Assembly: GCA_025267735.1 (NCBI GenBank)
Contig: CM046293.1
Location: 12,672,560-12,736,559, forward strand
DNA: 64,000 nt
Source: Mactra quadrangularis
Lineage: Eukaryota > Mollusca > Bivalvia > Venerida > Mactridae
Direction: 5' to 3'
Shown: positions 5,056-36,961 of the stretch, in pieces
Position numbering within the stretch: position 1 is the stretch's first letter
How the letters are laid out: each line of letters opens with the position of its first letter
Position numbers and translations under genes: made by a program
Notes under the pieces: generated by a model
Database searches by the model: none
The model's input: the letters and a program-made list of their open reading frames with translations, nothing else
What the model was told of the DNA's origin: nothing

Positions 5056-17073
<12,018 letters not shown>

Positions 17074-20246: not shown

Positions 20247-21541
20247 TTAAACAATGGACTTGCCTAATCACTAGGTAAATAAGCTGATGAGTGTACATTG
20301 AAACCCAATGAAATTCCACTAAATGATAGAAAGTGTTTAAATTGTGATACTTTAGAAGACGAATGTCATTTTGATTTGGAATGTGCTCTATACAGCAATC
20401 TAAGATAGCAATTTATACCTAAATTTTATTAGTTAAACGTGTTAGGAGTAATCATATGTATACATTTGTTAGGTTTCAATGTGCACGGAAGTCTTTCTGT
20501 ATTTCGATACTTTGATTAGATAACTAAATTGCCTGACTCATTCCATATAAAAGCAGTTTGCTTCCTAATGAAATACTGCAAAATCTACAGTTATAGTGTT
20601 TGTTAAGTTTCTGTCATTTACTGGCTTTTTATTCAAGCGTTCTGGAAATAGATCCATGCATAGTCATGTTATATTCCTGAAATGCTACAAGATTGTTATC
20701 TCCCCGATTGTTCAAACTGTCAAATGTTTAGCAAGGGTAAGTAAGTAGCCGTTAGAGTAAAGTGCAGAAACTCTGGTTAGTCTAAACGATGGAAATATGC
20801 AAATGCTTTCTCTAAAAGCAGCATAAGTACAACAGCATTCGGAACCCCTCTACGATTTTCTACGCAAATATACCTCGGACATTATAAGAAAGTAAAGTAG
20901 TTCTTAGTACATGTATTCCGTAGTTAATTCAAATTTCAATGAATGAGGATTCTGTTGAAACATAAAGTCAGAACTACATTGAACCATGACCTTTCAGACA
21001 TTGTACTTCAAGTAAGATACTTTTGATAAGGCTTTTAACAAGGTATATCTAAATTTTTAAGTGTATAAACAAAATGACAGCTGATTGTGTTTCAATGTAT
21101 AAGTTGATAATCCTTGGCCATTTGCAGTGAGAAAGACGTTTTCAAGTTGTATTGTAGCAAATTAGAAGAAAACTCGTTTGGTAATATGGACAAAGCACGT
21201 CCATGCATAAACAATAATAGCACTACTTTCAGCGAGTTATTCGCCGAGCCTCATTACTTGTAATCCTACACCCCTTCTGATATCCGAGGTATATCTTCGT
21301 AGAAGATTTCTGAGGTGTTCCGAGTGGCACAACAGCAAAAGATGAGAGTTTGTTAAAAACAACAGACAACAACAAATAATCAGATTCAAGTTTTCTTCAT
21401 ACACAAAACCAACATGCAGATAAATATAAATGTAATAATTATACATATGAGTATACGAATTATATACACGTAAAATAGTAAAATGTCAACAAAAGATGGT
21501 ATGGTTGGGTAAAACGTGATGTGTTAATGCATTTTATCATT

Positions 21542-21787
21542 TTAGTTTCCAACCCGAATAAGTCCTAACACAGCAGTGATACCCGAATAGTTCACACTTG
21601 AGTTTGTATCAATTTCCTCTATGTATAAATTGTCACCAGACTTTAAAGGAAGGACAGTCATTGTAGGACAAGATTTACTATCCGTGGTGGAATCACCATT
21701 AGAGAAGTTAAAACAAGAAGCCACAGAGATCTTGTCTGGTTCCTTCTTTATATAATATCCTCTCTTGTATTCACCCGTCAACGTCAT
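21542..21787 (-). CDS. Ligand 2 last exon, version b (distal)
   Basis: 82 codons including the stop, phase 0, acceptor CTTTACAG|ATG. It starts MTLTGEYKRGYYIKKE, has the Cys pair (SVASCFNF ... SKSCPTM), then NLYIEEIDTNSSVNY and ends VLGLIRVGN. Only 440 bp separate it from version a, with no room for the earlier THD exons, so it is best read as an alternative last exon. It could also be a silent duplicate, though the frame is intact and the TNF motifs are kept. Confidence 0.8.
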   Translation of the reverse strand: MTLTGEYKRGYYIKKEPDKISVASCFNFSNGDSTTDSKSCPTMTVLPLKSGDNLYIEEIDTNSSVNYSGITAVLGLIRVGN

Positions 21788-24700
21788 CTGTAAAGAGGAG
21801 GATAATACCATTGTTAATGGTGAACTGGTAACACGAGTCACGTGATATGTTCGTTGCTTGGTTACGAACAAATTTATTCGAATTTAAGAATTCATTGGAT
21901 TTCTTTTTGCTCGGGGAGTCACAAGGCAAGATACGCGGTTTGTTTGTAGTGCGGTTACGAACACATGTTGTGCAATTTCAAGACTTCTTTGTATTTCCTT
22001 TTGATAAGGGCGAGACATGGTACACGATTATGCCTAAAACGAGAGGTCCTTCGCAGTTCTTTATATATACGTTTTAGGGACATCACAGTTCATTTAACAC
22101 CGTTGCTCTATACACCATAATTCATTAGATACACGTTGCTAAGAGCGATGCAGTTCATTAGAAACACGTTGCTAAGGAAGTCACATGACATTTTATTCCA
22201 CGATTGCTAAGGAAGCCACATGACATTTTATTCCACGTAGTTTCCTATTTTGATGAGTCCTAAGTAATTAGATGTAGGCAGATATTGTATGCTACTGTTG
22301 GAGTCAATCTCACGGATGAATATTTCTGTATTTTGTCTTAAATTGACCACATTCATTGTAAAACATGTTTCACTGCGCGTGTTTGTAACAGTTCTGTTTC
22401 TTTTGCACACAGCTATGGTTTGTAAACGCGGTGTGGTTCGAGTACTGGACAAACTAGATTCTTGTTTTAATATTTCCATTCCAGCAATGGTTGGTCCCTG
22501 TAATTTCAACTGTAAATTAACAAAACAAAAAAGTAACACGTGACTTGGTAAAACTAGAAAGTGCATTTATAATTACATACATTATTTGAAAATAAACGTT
22601 TTCTAAGTTTATGAAATTATTTCTACGGCCTTTCTCCCTCCTACCAATGATTTTTAATTATGTAGGACAGTTGTCAGTCACGGACGAAAGTAAGCGTTTA
22701 GTAGTTGGTTAACAGCTAAATCCAAAGATTAAGCCTTTCCAGGAGTGAGTAGGTTGATTGACCGACGTGATATGACCTACACAATGTGTTGCTACGGCGT
22801 TAAACCCAACAAAAACAAAACAAACAAATCTTCTCTAACTTCTACGACTTCATTTCATGGTAAAATTTTATGTACACGTCATTTGCATTTATTATTTCTA
22901 AAAAAGCACATACGGCAGAGCAGGATGATAAGTTTTGTTAAATTTGCTTAAATTTTTGTGAAAAGGGTAGCAGACAAGCAACACGTAGTCACAACTACTA
23001 AAATATGTGAAACTGCTTGTAAGATAACCTTGAATCAAACCATGTCAATATCTTTACTTAGAAACTGTGAAATGTTTTCGGCAAGAAATGATAATTCAAA
23101 ATGTATTCTCATTTACCTGTGCATAAAGTAAATAAAGACCGTCTTTAACAACCTTCAATTTTCCATCTTGATTAACTCTCTTTGTATCAAAAAATTTAGC
23201 CGTTGAATCTGACCATGTAGAGGCTTTCCAAAAGCCAGATAAATCTGCAATAATGGGGAAAATAGTTAAACTCCTTTTTTAGAGTTTTAAAGGAAAAAAA
23301 ATGTAATTTATGAAAAAGTTTAATTAAAGATTCCGTGCTTATTGTTAAGACAATCAGTGCTTTGACGACTAATGCTTATGACAATCAGGGTGAAAAGTGA
23401 TAAACGATTAATCCATCAGATTAATCTGTGCACCATATAATCGAATATCTTACACTTTGATTACATTATATTGTAGATGATTTACGATGAAATTTGATCG
23501 TAAGACCGTTTACAATATGGGTCCCTGGGCGCTTAATGGTTCTTATGGGTCCCGGGGCGCTTAGTGGTTCTTATGGGTCCCTGGGCGCTTAATGGTTCTT
23601 ATGGGTCCCTGGGCGCTTAGTGGGTCTGATGAGTCCCTGGGCGCTTAATGGTTCGTATGAGTCCCTGGGTGCTTAATGGTTCTTATGGGTCCCGGGGCGC
23701 TTAGTGGTTCTTATGGGTCCCGGGGCGCTTAGTGGTTCTTATAGGTCCCTGGGCGCTTATAGGTTCTTATGGGTCCCTGGGCGCTTAGTGGTTCTTATAT
23801 TAACAATCAGGGCGAAGAGGTTTTTTGATGATGCCTTTTCTGCCTTTGATAATTTTTTCAAATTTTTGGTATGACAATCGATCATATGATACTATTAAAA
23901 TATCGAACTTGTTCAGGTGAACAGTATAAGTGTCAAGGACCGGTATATTCCATTTTAAAAATTTACAACTCAAGAAACTGGTCACTTTAATTTTGAATGT
24001 TACGTACAGAAACATGTGTAACACGTGGCACAGTGACAGAGAAGTGTTGATAATATTGCGATTATCGATGTATGAAATCTAAATCAATTTATAAAAGCAA
24101 TAAATAATATTAAAAACGGTCGGCACGGACCCTGTCCACGAAAGATGCTACTTTTATACATATGCACAGAGCCTCAGATAAAACAAAGGCATGCTGACCG
24201 GCTTTGCTATCATCCTAATATCCTAAACAATGCGCGGCTGTATAATCAGTGTTGAGAATCACGTGACCTATGTTCCTAACACGGCAAAAATGACGACCAG
24301 ATCAACAAATTTAGATGAAAAAGACATACTTAATGGCATTTATACATAACCGACTTTTATCAGACCTAGTGCAGTCTAAGCAGCACAAAATTTTCTTTCT
24401 TGCGGTGGCTCACCCAACCCCACAACGGTTCTAGTTTTCTAGATTACTTCGAGGTTATGTACGTGTCGAGAGATTTTTGGAAGAATTTAGAGGTAATCTA
24501 GAAAACTAGAACCATTGTGGGGTTGGGAGAGCTATCGCTAGAGAATTGTGTGCTGCTTAGACTGCACTATGTCTAATAAAAAATGTTTACCTATAAATGT
24601 CATTTATCTTGTCTTTTCATCTTAACTTGTTGATCTGGTCGTTTTTGTTGTGTTTGGAATCATATAGGTTACTTGATTTCCCACACAGATAATGTCTAGT

Positions 24701-27700
24701 TACAGAATATACAAGAATGTATGATATATAAAATAAAGTATAATTACCAGATTTGTCTTGTTTACTAAATCCACCGGTTCCTTCTATTTGAACAACAGGA
24801 AGACAATTCTAAAATCAACCAATATAAAACACACTGATGATAATGTAACACTTTGATTATACGAGATTAAGTGTTATGTAATATAAATGAAGTTGTCATC
24901 GATTCCAACGACATCGCTGTATTGTAGGGCTGTAACGATTCACCGATGCATCGTGAGATCGTATTCGCGACTGACCGATACGGATGTATCGAATCGCGTC
25001 CTAAAAAATCGCGATTCAGAAGACCCTTTATAAGAAATCAGTAAAAGACAAAATATACCATATATCTATAGCATTTAACTTGCAATTTCAATCTGTATTT
25101 ACTTCTTATTCTCAATAGTCATTAAACAAAGATAACATTTGTTTTGTTGGTTTTATTTTGTGCCAAGTGAGGGTAATTACTAACTTTGTTAATTTTATGA
25201 TTGTTTGATAAAAATATCACAATTTGTCAATGCATCCATACCAAATTTACAATTTACATCGTGTCGCAATTAATACCGTAATCGCGAGGCATATATCGTG
25301 ATACGTATCGTATCGCGACCTTAATCAAGATACGCAGCCCTACTGTATTGTTGATATTTTTTCAAAACAATAGTCGATGTGCATTTTGAAACATCGGTAA
25401 TTAAGCTTAAATAGGTAAATAAATAAAAGTGTAAATTTGCGAGACGATCCTTCTATCATGAGCGGTGCGTTGTCATAATATGAACGGATAGGTCTAAAAC
25501 ATTGACGGCATCCCTATTGACGAAACAGCCCTAATCAACAGATTGTACATTGTTGCATTTTTATGTCAAATATACATCTATTATGAGTTTATGACAACAT
25601 AAATGGTCTGTATAGTATTGCAATGAATGTATCGATATATATATCAATGTGTCTTCTATATTTATTTGTCGATGTATCATCGATGCTTTTCGAGCCAAAT
25701 AGATGACAGTGCTATACATATAAGGCCTTTAATAATCATTTTGCAAACCTTCTTATCGAGACAGTCGCCGTAAATTACATTCGTGTCATTCGGAACACCT
25801 CGACCTTTCATGAATGAATAATCTCGGAAGGATTCGTGGGGGTCTACCCTGGCGGCTTGGAATTTTACTACCAACGCGAGGCGAAGCACGTAACGGTTAT
25901 GCAAAATAGCTCTTGAAGTATACACACAGATCTTTGTCAAAACATAATTCTTTGTAATATATTGAACCAAATATTGTTCAGCGATATCATTGAACTGCGT
26001 AATTTCAAATTTACGGGCTAAAAAATGAAAAATCACTCATCGCCTAAACTTGTTTACTTCAACACCGGTAGTTTCAAAATGGCGCCTAAATATGTCCGAG
26101 GTTATTCGTTGCGAATGGCCGAGGAGTTCCGAATGGTATTCGTGTACGCCACGGTAGTCGCAACGTTAGTCAGAGAATCTTGATCACTCTTGTCATTTTA
26201 GAATTGTCTACGAGTTATTAACATATATATATATATTTCTTTTTTTTCGCGTATGTGGAGAAAATAGCTTGAAAAAATCAGTATACATGAACGTGTTCAA
26301 TACGTGAAGTTTTTTAATTCTGACACACCGATAGCTGTATGATTCTATGGTTTTGATATATATACCTTAATTTTTATTGCAATCTGCACAAACAATGCTT
26401 TTAGTCAAACAACATATTAATCATTATATTCACGAATAATATATATGATTAATTCCATTAATTATACAATTTTGTTTGGATGTTTAAGCTAATGAAAATA
26501 GCTTGATCCCTTTGGGATATGTGTCTATTTTTCAGACAAAAAATATTTGACTTGCATGTAACGCCGTGATGTAAAGTTTTCCAGTTTCTTTACATATTCA
26601 TGTATTTCAAAATGTGCATTCGAAGTGTTTCTTGGTTTCCCATAACTTAAATAGCTCTAGTTAGGATTTATACCAAACTGTTTGAAGTAAAGAGTGGGCG
26701 ACTACAGGGAATCCCCTTCTGTGTCCAAAACTACCAAAAATACTTATGTACATGTATATATATGAACAAAATCAGTTAAATATTGAAGTTAGTTGAGAAA
26801 CGTAAAAGATTCAGTTTAGTTAACGGGGATATATATGTTTTTTAGTGATTTAATAGATTTGTGTTGAATTTTTCGTCATAGTACGTACGGTAGAGTTTTT
26901 AAATTAAACATTTATTATACATACATGGATATATATCAATTTACTTAATGGAAGATTGACTAAGTTTAATATTAAATCTGTATTGTGTTCAAAGTGCACG
27001 TATTCTAGGTATTGGGCAAAATCATACAATTATAATATATTACTTAAAACTCTAAACGTTAACTTTAAAATATTCAACTTTTTTTGTATATTATCAACTA
27101 CCACCTAGATGTATTTCGTAGAAATAAACATTCAATTCTCATAAGGGAATAAAGATATTTCACTAAGATGGTAAACCGTAAATAATTTTAACGAAAAAAA
27201 AAACGATGGTATTTATTTTTTCAGATCGCATTAAGATTATGCGCTTTGTTCTACCGTTTTCAATTCTAAATAAAGGTTTTGTATATTGGGTTCATCGTCG
27301 AACATAACAGATTTAATTTACAAAGGTTTCATATTTCACATACTCTCCTAACCTATATAAATTAGGAAGTTTAGAACCAATATTTTCATTGGTTGATGAA
27401 CCAACCTATGAAAATCCGTGTTCTCATGTATATTTCATATATCTATTATTATTAAATTTAGAGTTCAGACTACCCTGGCGACCCTGAACTCAGTGTACTC
27501 CAATTGTTGGGAGACTTGTTGTAAACAAACCGTCTGCCAAGTTGATTTATGTGGAACAATTTAAGGTCGAGGTTTTTTTGTGTGTTCAATTTACTGGTCG
27601 CAAATTGCCCTAGTCATTTATATTGTGGTATTTTTGGCAAACAGTTTGCTCAATGTCACTGTATACATGTATAGTGTACCCACGTGGTTGTTTGTAAAGT

Positions 27701-33700: not shown

Positions 33701-36700
33701 TAGAAGCAGTTCGCTAACAAAGATGAAGCAAGAAATCAAGAGAATGTCGTAACAAAACATATACAAATAAAGCTTAGATGTTCCCTGGCTACAATATCAT
33801 TTACAAAGCAAGCTGAGGAAACAAGTGCAAGGCAGAAGTTCTGGACTCTGGAATTGATCGGCTTTACGAAACATGAAATTATTATATTTTGTAAAATCTT
33901 ATTATATTGACAGTGTGACAGTTGTTACCAATTCCAAGTTATCACAGAATGTGTGCATTGTATTGATAATATTGACCAATCACATGCATGTATACATGCA
34001 GCAGCGAGTTTCATGCTGACGGTAGATTAAATGCCGGTCCCTCACCTCCCAGCAGCCAGCAACATACTGCTGATAGTGTGACTGATCTGCTCTAAAATCA
34101 GCAAGCCTAAAAGCTATTTGTGACAAGCAAGTTTGTGACCTCTAAATTTCTAGCGATGGGCTATTACATGATTAAGGAGAATTCATAATGGAATTAAATG
34201 GTAAAACAAAATTTGGCAGTTACCTTGCATCTCTTTTTTCTATTCTTATTCTTATGACGTTCTTTGTTTGCTTTACGTTTGTTTCTATGTAACAAGAGTT
34301 GTTGTAACGGTGCTGACATATTATCTTCCTCTGATGAATGGGTACCCGAGATCTGAAATGATAAACATGTTTTCTCAAGCTTCATATACTTAACGAAAAT
34401 TCTAAGTACTCCAATTTCTTTATAGTAGGAAATACTTATTTTTCAACAAAAATGTCCAATCGATAATGGAAATGTGTATAGGACCATACTGTCGTCTGCT
34501 TGCATGGTTTTCATGCATCATTATCAATGCAATACTGGTTTTGACGTGCATATGCTGAAAAGCAGAAATGGGCACGTGCTTCTCATGCAAAAATCCCACA
34601 TGGTCAGTTTTGGTGAAAATCATAAGTGTGTTGATATGCTTAACGAAAATTCAAGAAATGGCTCGAATGTCGCTACAAGAAGGAGTAATCGCCAAAGGTC
34701 TTTTGCACGGCCGTGCGTAAGAGATAAAAAGTTCTAATTGCTATATTTTCTGTTAAATCATAGCAATTAAATCGACCTATACACGACAAAACTGGTTTGG
34801 CAACCTTGTGGATGCAAGAAAACCATGCAAGCAGACGACAGTATGGTTTCGTATACAATTCCACTATCGATTGGACATAAATGTTGAAAAGTAAAGATTT
34901 CCTACAATGAAGTTTTACAGCAATAACGATGAATGTCATTCAAACACAGGAGTACTAAGTTCCGCTATTAAGATCATCAAATTCGATCTTTTAATACTGG
35001 AACGGTCCTCATATATAGGTCCAATTTTTAGTACTTGAAGCTTAACAATTCTCAAAAACGCATGATTTGCATAAATCAACGTGGTCTTAGAAGCGGAACT
35101 TAACTTACTGCCACGTACATCAACAGTAAAAGAGTTGAAAAGTGAGTGAGCATAAGTTATAAACCACTGCTTGTGTGTCACTCCTACCAAAGCCGTACTC
35201 GAATTAGTTGTCATATAAAACAATATTGCATTGCATTGCAACCACAGGCAGGCAGGGCCGCACGGTCCCAAAGCAAAAACAATATGCACTCGTATATAAA
35301 GTGTTTTTGCTTCGGCACCGCGCCGGCCTCCAGTGATTGCAACAGTTTACCGCTATTGTCCAAGATGCAAATTTATGGCAACTGTTATTTGATATAGCAT
35401 ATTTACTATATTTACTCAATAAGATAATTTTACATGTTTTGTCTTTGTGCGAGTCAATGCATTAAGGAGACATCATCTTGGCTTGCATGCATTGTTCTTC
35501 CAGAATACATGTAACATGCAAATAACCAAGGGATCCTCCTTATCAACACTTCAATGGCTTATTAATGTCGTAAATCCTTTTATATGTATAGTCATAGTAA
35601 CGTAAGATCTTTGATAATTATTATGCTTCCCAGTTCTATATCTACCTAGTAAATATGTGAGCATCATTCTTTGGTACTTGCACTGGCATATTATTGAGCA
35701 AACTTACTTTTTGTTGATTTGATCAACAATTATAAGTTGTTGTCTTACAGCCTTCACTTTAGGCGACAACTTTGAATGAAAATGGAAAGTTTGAACAATT
35801 TTAAGATTCAAGAGGGACGCTCATTTCACTAATGTTTCAATGCTTACACCCGTCAACCAATATGAAGCTCAGTATTGCAATATGATAGACCAAGACGTTT
35901 AAAACACGGTTTGCAGAACCAGGTGGAGCATTGGCATCGCTAGCTAATGTTTTGGGGACGGGCTTGAATCTAGCAAAGGAATGTTCATTTCAGTCGAACA
36001 AAAGTTTTGCAGCACGTTCCAAATTGTTCTTCCTTGAAATTCTAAGAAATGCATTTCACGTGTGCATTCTTTCATACACCAAACATTGCTTTTGTGGACC
36101 TTGTCTAAAACCAGTACTAACCTACCTTTCAACAAGGCTAACGACCTCTCCACATACCTAATTGATGGTACTGCTGGAAATCGACTTTTTTGTCAAATGT
36201 TCATAGAATTGTATTACATGACTAGGTGAGGTTCGAACCAGCAGAGCAGCTAAAATACTACAGTGTGCATATGACCAATAACTACCGACTATAGTATTTC
36301 TACATCTACATAAGGATGACCTATTAAGATGAGTGCATGTTCGAGTTAACAAGGCATAAAACATAAAATAATTTTGGCAATATAGGGTACTCCAAAAGGC
36401 ATTGGACAAAATCTGATTTTAGGATAAACCGTTTCGAATTTACCAATGCAAATACTAGTACAACAAAGATTCATATAAGTAAATTCTAAAATCAGCGTTA
36501 TTTTAAAACTAAGCTCTAAAGTACATTGCATTTATGTAATTTTAAATGCATACATAGTAAAATTTCTTGTAGTATGCAATATCAGTTTTTTCTTAAAATT
36601 CGATTTGTCCAAGAACTTTTGGAGTGCACTGTATGACAATAGCACGTACCAGCTGTGTATCTGCTAGACCTTGTTGCTGCTGAACCAAAGCTACTAGATT

Positions 36701-36961
36701 CTCTAAATTCCTTGCAAGGTCATCAATACGTGATCTCAGTTCATTATTGTCATTAGATAAAGTATTCATTTTGTCCCATGCTGTGTAATTAAACAATACA
36801 TTACTAATTAAACAAACAACGCCTACTACGATAGAACACACTGCAATGTTTTGAAATCGTTTAACTCTTAATTTGTTCTTCAAGCAACACGTGCATGCAT
36901 TGTCTACAATTGCATCGTCACTTTTGTCACTATACGGAACTGATATCACACTCTCCTTCAT
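21542..36961 (-). CDS. TNF superfamily ligand 2 with two alternative last exons
   Basis: Predicted type II TNFSF ligand. Exons: 36650-36961, 34224-34352, 24748-24808, 23117-23244, then either 22228-22509 (303 aa in total) or 21542-21787 (291 aa). Phases 0,0,1,0, all GT-AG. Residues 1-38 are cytoplasmic with a CTCC cluster at 23-26; the membrane segment is about 39-57; residues 60-104 look like a coiled coil with a QQQQ run. Exon 2 is a polybasic stalk with RKKR. The THD opens with PVVQIEGTG, has DGLYLLYAQ at the central strand, and ends with an EIDxNSS...LGLI motif in both last exons. A Cys pair (13-14 residues between) in each last exon matches the disulfide of several TNF ligands. Its likely job is ligand for TNF receptors in immunity or cell death (family knowledge). 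The last-exon choice is inferred from sequence only. Confidence 0.87.
22171..22242. repeat. 36-bp tandem duplication over the end of last exon a
   Basis: GCTAAGGAAG(T/C)CACATGACA followed by TTTTATTCCACG occurs twice in tandem. One copy contains the stop codon, so the duplication copied the last coding bases and the polyadenylation signal. Confidence 0.85.
22190..22232 (-). terminator. Two AATAAA signals at the end of ligand 2 last exon a
   Basis: On the minus strand the end of the exon reads GTG GAA TAA AAT, so the stop codon lies inside AATAAA. A second AATAAA follows about 30 nt on (22192-22197). Both sit in a tandemly duplicated block of about 36 bp. They would allow cleavage right after version a. 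Confidence 0.5.
22228..22509 (-). CDS. Ligand 2 last exon, version a (proximal)
   Basis: 94 codons including the stop, phase 0, acceptor TTTACAG|TTG. It starts LKLQGPTIAGMEILKQ, has TIAVCKRNRTVTNTRSETCF (Cys pair), then EIFIREIDSNSSIQY and ends LGLIKIGNYVE. A second in-frame AG 12 nt further in (exon from 22497) would drop LKLQ. The stop TAA lies inside an AATAAA motif, and a further AATAAA about 30 nt on could end the transcript here. Confidence 0.85.
   Translation of the reverse strand: MKLQGPTIAGMEILKQESSLSSTRTTPRLQTIAVCKRNRTVTNTRSETCFTMNVVNLRQNTEIFIREIDSNSSIQYLPTSNYLGLIKIGNYVE
22609..22818 (+). repeat. SINE family B, headless
   Basis: ATGAAATTATTTCTACGGCC, the GGACAGTTGTCAGTCACGGA body, and the tail TGCTACGGCGTTAAACCCAA. 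It sits in intron 4 of ligand 2, just before last exon a. Confidence 0.8.
23117..23244 (-). CDS. Ligand 2 exon 4: THD core with DGLYLLYAQ
   Basis: 128 nt, phase 1 in and phase 0 out, acceptor ATTATTGCAG, donor CAG|GTAAAT. It reads DLSGFWKASTWSDSTAKFF and ends VVKDGLYLLYAQ, the most recognisable TNF-family segment (G-L/I-Y-x-V-Y-x-Q). The exon ends exactly after the Gln, as in ligand 3. Confidence 0.88.
23519..23798 (+). repeat. Minisatellite, 10 x 28 bp
   Basis: Ten units of exactly 28 bp (GGGTCCCTGGGCGCTTAATG + GTTCTTAT, with small changes) fill 280 bp with no indels. The array is far richer in G and C than its surroundings. It lies in intron 3 of ligand 2. Confidence 0.95.
24258..24677. 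mobile_element. Fold-back element, about 420 bp
   Basis: The halves are inverted copies: GACGACCAGATCAACAAA pairs with TTGTTGATCTGGTCG, TGCAGTCTAAGCAGCAC with GTGCTGCTTAGACTGCA, and AACCCCACAACGGTTCTAG with CTAGAACCATTGTGGGGTT. No coding frame. Confidence 0.8.
24748..24808 (-). CDS. Ligand 2 exon 3: THD first strand
   Basis: 61 nt, phase 0 in and phase 1 out. The acceptor is GATTTTAG and the donor CTG|GTAATT. It reads NCLPVVQIEGTGGFSKQDKS. VVQIEG is in the position of the AHFELKG strand. It sits 9.4 kb from exon 2 and 1.5 kb from exon 4. Confidence 0.8.
24925..25342. mobile_element. hAT-like MITE with 8-bp TSD CTGTATTG
   Basis: TAGGGCTGTAACGATTC on the left and GATACGCAGCCCTA on the right, flanked by CTGTATTG on both sides (24917-24924, 25343-25350). 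The inner part is rich in ATCGCGA/CGATAC words. It sits in intron 2 of ligand 2, just upstream of exon 3. Confidence 0.85.
25787..26135. mobile_element. MULE-like MITE, second copy
   Basis: Same ends (CATTCGGAACACCTCGACC / CCGAGGAGTTCCGAATG) and interior as 12146-12511. Flanks CATTCGTGT and TATTCGTGT form a 9-bp duplication with one change. Confidence 0.8.
26140..28472. other. Intron 2 of ligand 2: no gene seen
   Basis: AT-rich sequence without a repeat family I recognise, apart from a T-then-G run near 27921-27943 and a C run near 28189. No exon of the ligand is needed here by phase. Confidence 0.5.
28473..28799. mobile_element. Palindrome-of-palindromes element with 8-bp TSD TAGATAAT
   Basis: Ends TATGGTGGCATATTTCTGCC and GGCAGAAATATGCCACCA; flanks TAGATAAT on both sides (28465-28472, 28800-28807). 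The interior is built almost wholly from (T)TAACTAGTTACGGTAACTAG-type palindromes. Confidence 0.85.
29322..29750 (-). mobile_element. piggyBac-like MITE, copy P3, with a SINE fragment inside
   Basis: TTAA flanks at 29318-29321 and 29751-29754. Ends AGGTACTAGTTCACAGATTT and GAATGAGTACCT. A SINE A 3' end (29548-29622) is inserted in the middle. Confidence 0.82.
29548..29622 (+). repeat. SINE family A 3' end, nested
   Basis: CTAGGTTAGGTGCGCTGGAC, TTGTGTTGACACGGCGTTAA and an AATA-repeat tail; the rest is missing, as after 5'-truncated insertion. Confidence 0.8.
29760..30930. other. Intron 2 of ligand 2: nothing recognised
   Basis: AT-rich, no open frame with protein-like features and no clear repeat. 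Confidence 0.5.
30934..31276 (-). mobile_element. piggyBac-like MITE, copy P4
   Basis: TTAA at 30930-30933 and 31277-31280. Ends AGGTACTAGTTCACAGATTT and GTGAATGAGTATCT. Confidence 0.82.
31288..33641. mobile_element. 2.35-kb TIR element with periodic GTAGAGTCCGTAGCCC motif
   Basis: Ends CGGCTAAGCCAAGATAAA and TTTATCTTGGCTTAGCCG are perfect inverted repeats. Inside, GTAGAGTCCGTAGCCC (or one-base variants) stands at 31866, 32041, 32389, 32736, 33089 and 33443; the last five are 347-354 bp apart. The units between are diverged. No transposase frame is seen. Confidence 0.75.
34224..34352 (-). CDS. Ligand 2 exon 2: polybasic stalk with RKKR convertase site
   Basis: 43 codons, phase 0 on both sides, between TCATTTCAG and AAG|GTAACT. 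The exon starts ISGTHSSEEDNMS and ends in a Lys/Arg run (HRNKRK ... NKNRKKRCK). RKKR is a classical furin site, as in BAFF, APRIL and EDA stalks, so the ligand may be shed. The open frame continues past the donor, but the joins on both sides fit. Confidence 0.8.
34426..34905. mobile_element. TIR element with ends of about 90 bp
   Basis: The ends GTAGGAAAT ... TGTCCAATCGAT ... ACCATACTGTCGTCTGCTTG are repeated inverted on the right. Several frames seen here (for example 34474-34737) are products of the repeat. It lies between exons 1 and 2 of ligand 2. Confidence 0.8.
34955..35110. mobile_element. Tc1/mariner-like MITE, degenerate
   Basis: AAGTTCCGCTATTAAGATCA and, inverted, GGTCTTAGAAGCGGAACTTA are the ends of the family whose clean copy is nested at 37651-37822. 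Confidence 0.65.
36085..36245 (-). repeat. SINE family A, degenerate
   Basis: TTGTGGACCTTGTCTAAAAC, CAGTACTAACCTACC and a decayed box B (GGTTCGAACC inverted) follow the SINE A order. Confidence 0.55.
36650..36961 (-). CDS. Ligand 2 exon 1: cytoplasmic part, membrane segment, coiled coil
   Basis: 104 codons from the ATG at 36961 to the donor CAGCTG|GTACGT (phase 0). MKESVISVPYSDKSDD is acidic and Ser-rich; NACTCC and a basic run (KNKLRVKRF) lie just before the membrane segment IAVCSIVVGVVCLISNVLF. The heptad-like stretch NELRSRIDDLARNLENLVAL then suits a trimeric stalk. Confidence 0.88.

Follow-up and report, generated by a model that had tools for sequence, protein, structure and literature searches.

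A TNF ligand gene of the clam Mactra quadrangularis with two probable alternative last exons for half of the TNF domain

Results

Our analyses of a 64-kb stretch of Mactra quadrangularis DNA (hereafter the window, that is, the whole stretch analysed; G+C of 0.305-0.372 per 4 kb block) suggest with good confidence that the middle gene of three TNF-ligand-like genes, standing in tandem on the minus strand, possesses two alternative last exons, A and B, each supplying its own version of the C-terminal half of the TNF domain, and that this one gene probably makes two different signals. Alternative last exons are the best reading of this gene, ligand 2, because isoforms X3 and X4 of Mercenaria mercenaria, a gene model of Mactra antiquata and trees in which the ends group by exon type all point to them. 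The genes and exons to which we refer are the following (positions in the window).

63378-55617, minus strand: ligand 1 gene
36961-21542, minus strand: ligand 2 gene, putatively two-ended
36650..36961, minus strand: exon 1 of ligand 2, with start codon, cytoplasmic tail, membrane segment and beginning of the stalk; phase-0 donor GTACGT
34224..34352, minus strand: furin-site exon of ligand 2, with motifs RNKR and RKKR, which we take to be furin-like; phase 0 at both ends
24748..24808, minus strand: exon 2 of ligand 2, where the TNF domain begins (NCLPVVQIEGTGGFSKQDKS); starts in phase 0 and ends in phase 1
23117..23244, minus strand: exon 3 of ligand 2, TNF domain into strand C, last residues YAQ; phase-0 donor CAG/GTAAAT
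22228..22509, minus strand: proximal last exon A, encoding one version of the C-terminal TNF half, its Cys pair and a stop codon
22192..22232, minus strand: the two AATAAA hexamers of exon A, the first overlapping the stop codon
21542..21787, minus strand: distal last exon B, candidate for the other version of this C-terminal half, again with a Cys pair and its own stop codon
17073-5056, minus strand: ligand 3 gene

Ligand 2 is best explained as a type II membrane TNF ligand with a stalk and a predicted furin site. Its exon 1 encodes one strongly hydrophobic stretch past a 38-residue tail (maximum of the 19-residue hydropathy mean, 2.65) and shows 57% identity to residues 1-96 of the M. antiquata protein P0001; the furin-site exon matches residues 100-144 of the same protein (E 9e-8), and exon 2 is identical to it, and likewise to Mercenaria, at 18/20 residues. 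A preliminary description of this DNA had given the donor at 23117 and the acceptors at 22509 and 21787, and these coordinates proved exact; its exon set was nevertheless incomplete, the furin-site exon at 34352-34224 having been missed.

As that description had it, both last exons start in phase 0 after YAQ, and they stay open to their own stop codons over 93 (A) and 81 (B) residues, so that one common upstream donor faces two in-frame terminal exons, the anatomy of alternative last exons. The full products, furin exon included, amount to 303 (A) and 291 (B) residues with a single, terminal stop each, and shuffling of the bases left frame 0 open in 1/2000 cases for A and 4/2000 for B. Two features said to be common to the ends were likewise recovered, namely a Cys pair (residues 35 and 49 of A, 25 and 40 of B) and an ending motif that reads EIDSNSS or EIDTNSS with LGLI. 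When exon 3 was joined to either last exon, the Pfam TNF family (PF00229, cutoff of 23 bits) scored 47.9 bits for the A form and 36.1 bits for the B form, which identifies a TNF homology domain in both window products. The two ends are identical at 21/47 residues (BLASTP 2e-13), these including the second cysteine and much of NSS...LGLI, and they differ in length and in the region surrounding the first cysteine.

The splice sites were ranked against the minus-strand AGs (n=3158) and GTs (n=3866) of the window. According to the approximate matrices used, both acceptors are good, as had been claimed, with percentiles of 100 (B) and 95.8 (A) among the AGs, and the donor behind YAQ (23117) has a percentile of 98.9 among the GTs. 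Exon A has two AATAAA hexamers, one overlapping its stop codon (22232) and the other at 22197. Downstream of exon B, no AATAAA occurs within 900 bases, the next one standing at 20633, and close to its end there are variant hexamers only (GATAAA at 21538 and ACTAAA at 21546). Regulated last exons usually combine a weaker near exon, endowed with its own poly(A) signal, with a stronger far exon, and this arrangement may be in use at ligand 2.

The strongest evidence for paired last exons comes from the gene models of other clams. With the B product as query, a protein search returned two of 175 candidates, M. antiquata ACF0H5_021110 (P0001) and isoform X3 of Mercenaria mercenaria LOC123553845 (P0002), and a further search from P0002 returned 4 of 554, the new ones being isoforms X4 (P0003) and X5 (P0004) of the same gene; X3, X4 and X5 are all annotated gene models ('X' isoforms). 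The search with the isoform-A product found Mactra alone (1 of 220 candidates) and missed Mercenaria X3 and X4, hence its lack of further matches is no negative result. X3 and X4 are identical over residues 1-199, through ...GLYFVYAQM, beyond which X3 reads TLAGKSKRGY and X4 reads NLIGPSIKGF. The X3 end is identical to window B at 41/81 residues versus 23/80 for window A, and the X4 end to window A at 32/81 versus 25/78 for window B; the X4 and X3 ends agree with each other at 31/78, about as much as X4 does with window A. At 34.7 and 34.4 bits, the two isoform products both clear the Pfam TNF threshold. Their common upstream part and divergent ends support the proposal, made in the preliminary description, that the choice of end would replace the C-terminal half of the TNF domain and keep tail, membrane segment and stalk. 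In Mactra P0001, YAQ is followed by 33 A-like residues (residues 209-241, 20/33 identical) and then by a complete B-like exon that is identical to window B at 68/81 residues. Whether related species keep both exons had been suggested as a check, and the outcome is favourable: Mercenaria has the B-like end in X3 and the A-like end in X4, and Mactra has an A-like piece together with a B-like exon.

Maximum-likelihood trees, from which the 33-residue Mactra A piece was omitted as too short, recovered the B-type ends, which came from three species, as a group distinct from the A-type ends, which came from two species. The B-type group received a bootstrap of 91/100 when the ligand 1 exon was included and 100/100 when it was left out; in the former tree, the branch separating A and X4 from B and ligand 1 reached 52. 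Among 78 ungapped columns, again without the Mactra piece and the ligand 1 exon, 11 were informative, 7 grouping the ends by exon type, 4 by species and 0 in the crossed manner. Since the ends cluster by exon type and not by species, the exon duplication probably predates the divergence between the Mercenaria lineage and the one leading to M. antiquata and M. quadrangularis. An independent duplication in each lineage is disfavoured by the trees; the signals to the contrary are the four columns that group by species, the bootstrap of 52 and the likeness of X4 to X3. Some convergence or gene conversion between the ends is possible.

The same data bear on the proposal that only one end, B or A, is used and that the other is a silent relic of the exon duplication, which we consider improbable. 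B is the better kept of the two in Mactra, judging from the counts given above for B and for the visible part of A, and it has the better acceptor; A, on the other hand, is open, retains its Cys pair, has a homologue in the X4 end and obtains the higher Pfam TNF score. Given the age that the tree indicates, an unused exon would be expected to have decayed by now, which argues against this explanation. We give still less credit to the idea that A and B are placed in one mRNA by an internal donor in A that joins its first 33 residues to B. Mactra P0001 is indeed modelled in this manner and as such exceeds the Pfam TNF cutoff (34.6 bits), and exon A of the window has a GT after the codon that matches the Mactra internal junction (GCT/GTGTGC, about 22411). 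By eye, however, this donor is off the consensus, the product would carry the post-junction stretch twice, and the Mercenaria models take one whole A-like or one whole B-like end. We would rather read the P0001 model as two tandem exons forced together.

It is just as doubtful that B is the end of another, downstream gene that has lost its upstream exons or whose upstream exons escaped notice: TNF-like genes do stand in tandem here and a further gene lies downstream of B, its membrane-segment exon starting at 17073, but no second upstream set was found in the window and one Mercenaria gene attaches B-like and A-like ends to identical upstream sequence. That the upstream exons have no second copy in the window had been stated at the outset, and it holds in a tblastn search of the window with P0001-P0004 as queries (E up to 5), which gave one strong match each for exon 1, the furin exon and exon 2. 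The remaining matches to parts of these three exons all had E values of at least 0.03, and the exon 3 query also matched, weakly, a paralogue at 57438-57376.

Structure models were obtained for monomers of Mercenaria X4 and X3. They are weak overall (mean pLDDT of 56.7 for X4 and 50.7 for X3), and from residue 201 onward the ten-residue blocks range over 58-84 in X4 and 48-84 in X3. In both predicted models the junction, at residue 198, falls within one strand (192-203 in X4, 191-202 in X3), which, following the usual order of TNF strands, we take to be strand C. A Foldseek search against the PDB places both among TNF ligands. The best match of X4 is Eiger 6i50 (E 1.1e-6), and C1q heads, which belong to the same fold family, are also returned; X3 is closest to TRAIL 8slr (E 2.0e-6, though with an rmsd of 14.7), followed by Eiger 6zt0 (E 2.4e-6, rmsd 3.5).

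Ligand 1 includes an exon at about 57497-57379 and a last exon at 55871-55617; its YAQ junction is likewise in phase 0, and its Pfam TNF score is 37.9 bits. An exon with a hydrophobic stretch is present in each of ligands 1, 2 and 3. The joined exons of ligand 3 matched 0 Pfam families, so its identity rests on its likeness to Mercenaria X5. In X5 the furin exon MNVNRMLRRKRASSRRRGKKRCK, common to X3 and X4, is joined to another TNF domain (Pfam TNF, 26.4 bits), and X5 matches the window in ligand 3 at 7705-7589 (E 0.003), 6589-6494 (E 0.004) and 5217-5080 (E 1.4e-6); a stretch at 9646-9569 (E 0.69) is perhaps related. As modelled, X5 is without a membrane segment. It is possible that X5 represents a third head of the locus, and it may equally be a gene-prediction error in the tandem array.

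Discussion

The specificity of TNF ligands is generally thought to be gained through gene duplication. With a conserved exon pair of the kind described here, one gene could equip the same anchor with either of two receptor-binding halves, and the pair would amount to an experiment of nature on whether receptor choice is set by the first or the second half of the TNF domain. The succession of events that we envisage begins with an ancient tandem exon duplication that would have given rise to two alternative last exons. The donor at 23117 would then be joined either to exon A, with the AATAAA that overlaps A's stop codon directing polyadenylation, or, exon A being skipped, to exon B. Everything up to YAQ would be common to both products, namely tail, membrane segment, stalk, furin site and the N-terminal half of the TNF domain; past YAQ, from within strand C, they would differ in the later loops and strands, the cysteine-bounded loop among them. 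A and B would be used in a regulated manner in M. quadrangularis, and their products would bind different receptors, or one receptor differently.

The closest precedent is ectodysplasin (EDA-A1/A2), in which, as proposed for the clam ligand 2, one TNF ligand gene offers a splice choice within the TNF domain. According to the excerpts of two studies, EDAR binds EDA-A1 only and XEDAR binds EDA-A2 (PMC12686597, PMC10334605), two residues distinguishing the EDAR-binding from the XEDAR-binding form (PMC10334605). The extent of the change differs, since the EDA splice alters two residues whereas the clam gene would exchange 81-93 residues via a second last exon. The nearest PDB sequence match of the A-type X4 is EDA-A2 (E 3.4e-5). 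In the alignments of P0003, EDA-A2 (1rj8) reads YFIYSQVYYIN, EDA chain 7x9g reads YFIYSQVEVYYIN and the clam protein reads YFVYAQ/MNLIG; the extra residues of EDA-A1 come after YSQ, which aligns to the clam YAQ junction, so that in both systems the change is placed directly after the strand C motif YxQ. These alignments put the EDA receptor-switch residues no more than one residue away from the junction of the clam exons, and the human EDA intron presumably lies at the same position as the clam intron. The contacts between EDA-A1 and EDAR given in the excerpt of PMC12686597 include Gln256, Gln261, Asp265 and Asp273, which precede the clam junction, and also Tyr310 and Lys340, which follow it. 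As contacts lie on both sides of the junction, at least among those of the excerpt, it is plausible by analogy that the choice of end would switch the receptor.

Other known systems are more remote. TWE-PRIL, a TWEAK-APRIL hybrid, is described in the excerpt of PMC6262789 as the membrane part of one TNF ligand with the extracellular domain of another, and Mercenaria X5 likewise joins the stalk exon to a ligand-3-like domain. TWE-PRIL, as that excerpt presents it, nonetheless unites two ligands and replaces the extracellular domain in its entirety, whereas A and B would constitute a pair of exons within a single gene and a single domain. The clam ligand also has the TNF domain in common with invertebrate TNF ligands such as Drosophila Eiger, which is the best PDB sequence match of the B-type X3 (E 0.0014). 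We know of no paired last exons in Eiger.

It is tempting, if rather speculative, to regard the YxQ junction in strand C as an ancient switch point of TNF ligands, operated through two residues in EDA and through a duplicated exon in clams, and, with the X5 model, to picture one locus serving three receptor-binding heads, namely A, B and the whole domain of ligand 3; we hold this larger picture to be possible but on balance unlikely. In the excerpt of the study of the Mercenaria genome (PMC8905726), 76 TNF genes are counted, mostly in tandem, as are the TNF ligands of the window; that study counts genes, and the word 'isoform' is absent from the main text as excerpted. Gene-based tallies of clam TNF ligands would understate the number of ligands. 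No description of such paired exons in mollusc TNF ligands was found among the matches listed (titles and beginnings of abstracts, with few subscription journals). The Mercenaria isoforms are already available publicly as models named 'uncharacterized protein'; what is undescribed, as far as we found in this literature, is thus not the sequences but the arrangement, two last exons in a TNF ligand.

Several repeats accompany the ligand 2 gene. The intron before exon 3 contains a minisatellite at 23516-23798 (28-base units, 10.1 copies, 90% matches), and the same intron holds a long, imperfect inverted repeat at 24285-24650 (arms of 37, 78 and 53 bases, 81-89% complementary), which extends near exon 2 and resembles a short DNA transposon. 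At the stop of exon A there is a 35-base tandem duplication (2.1 copies, 22165-22238), which doubles the AATAAA signal.
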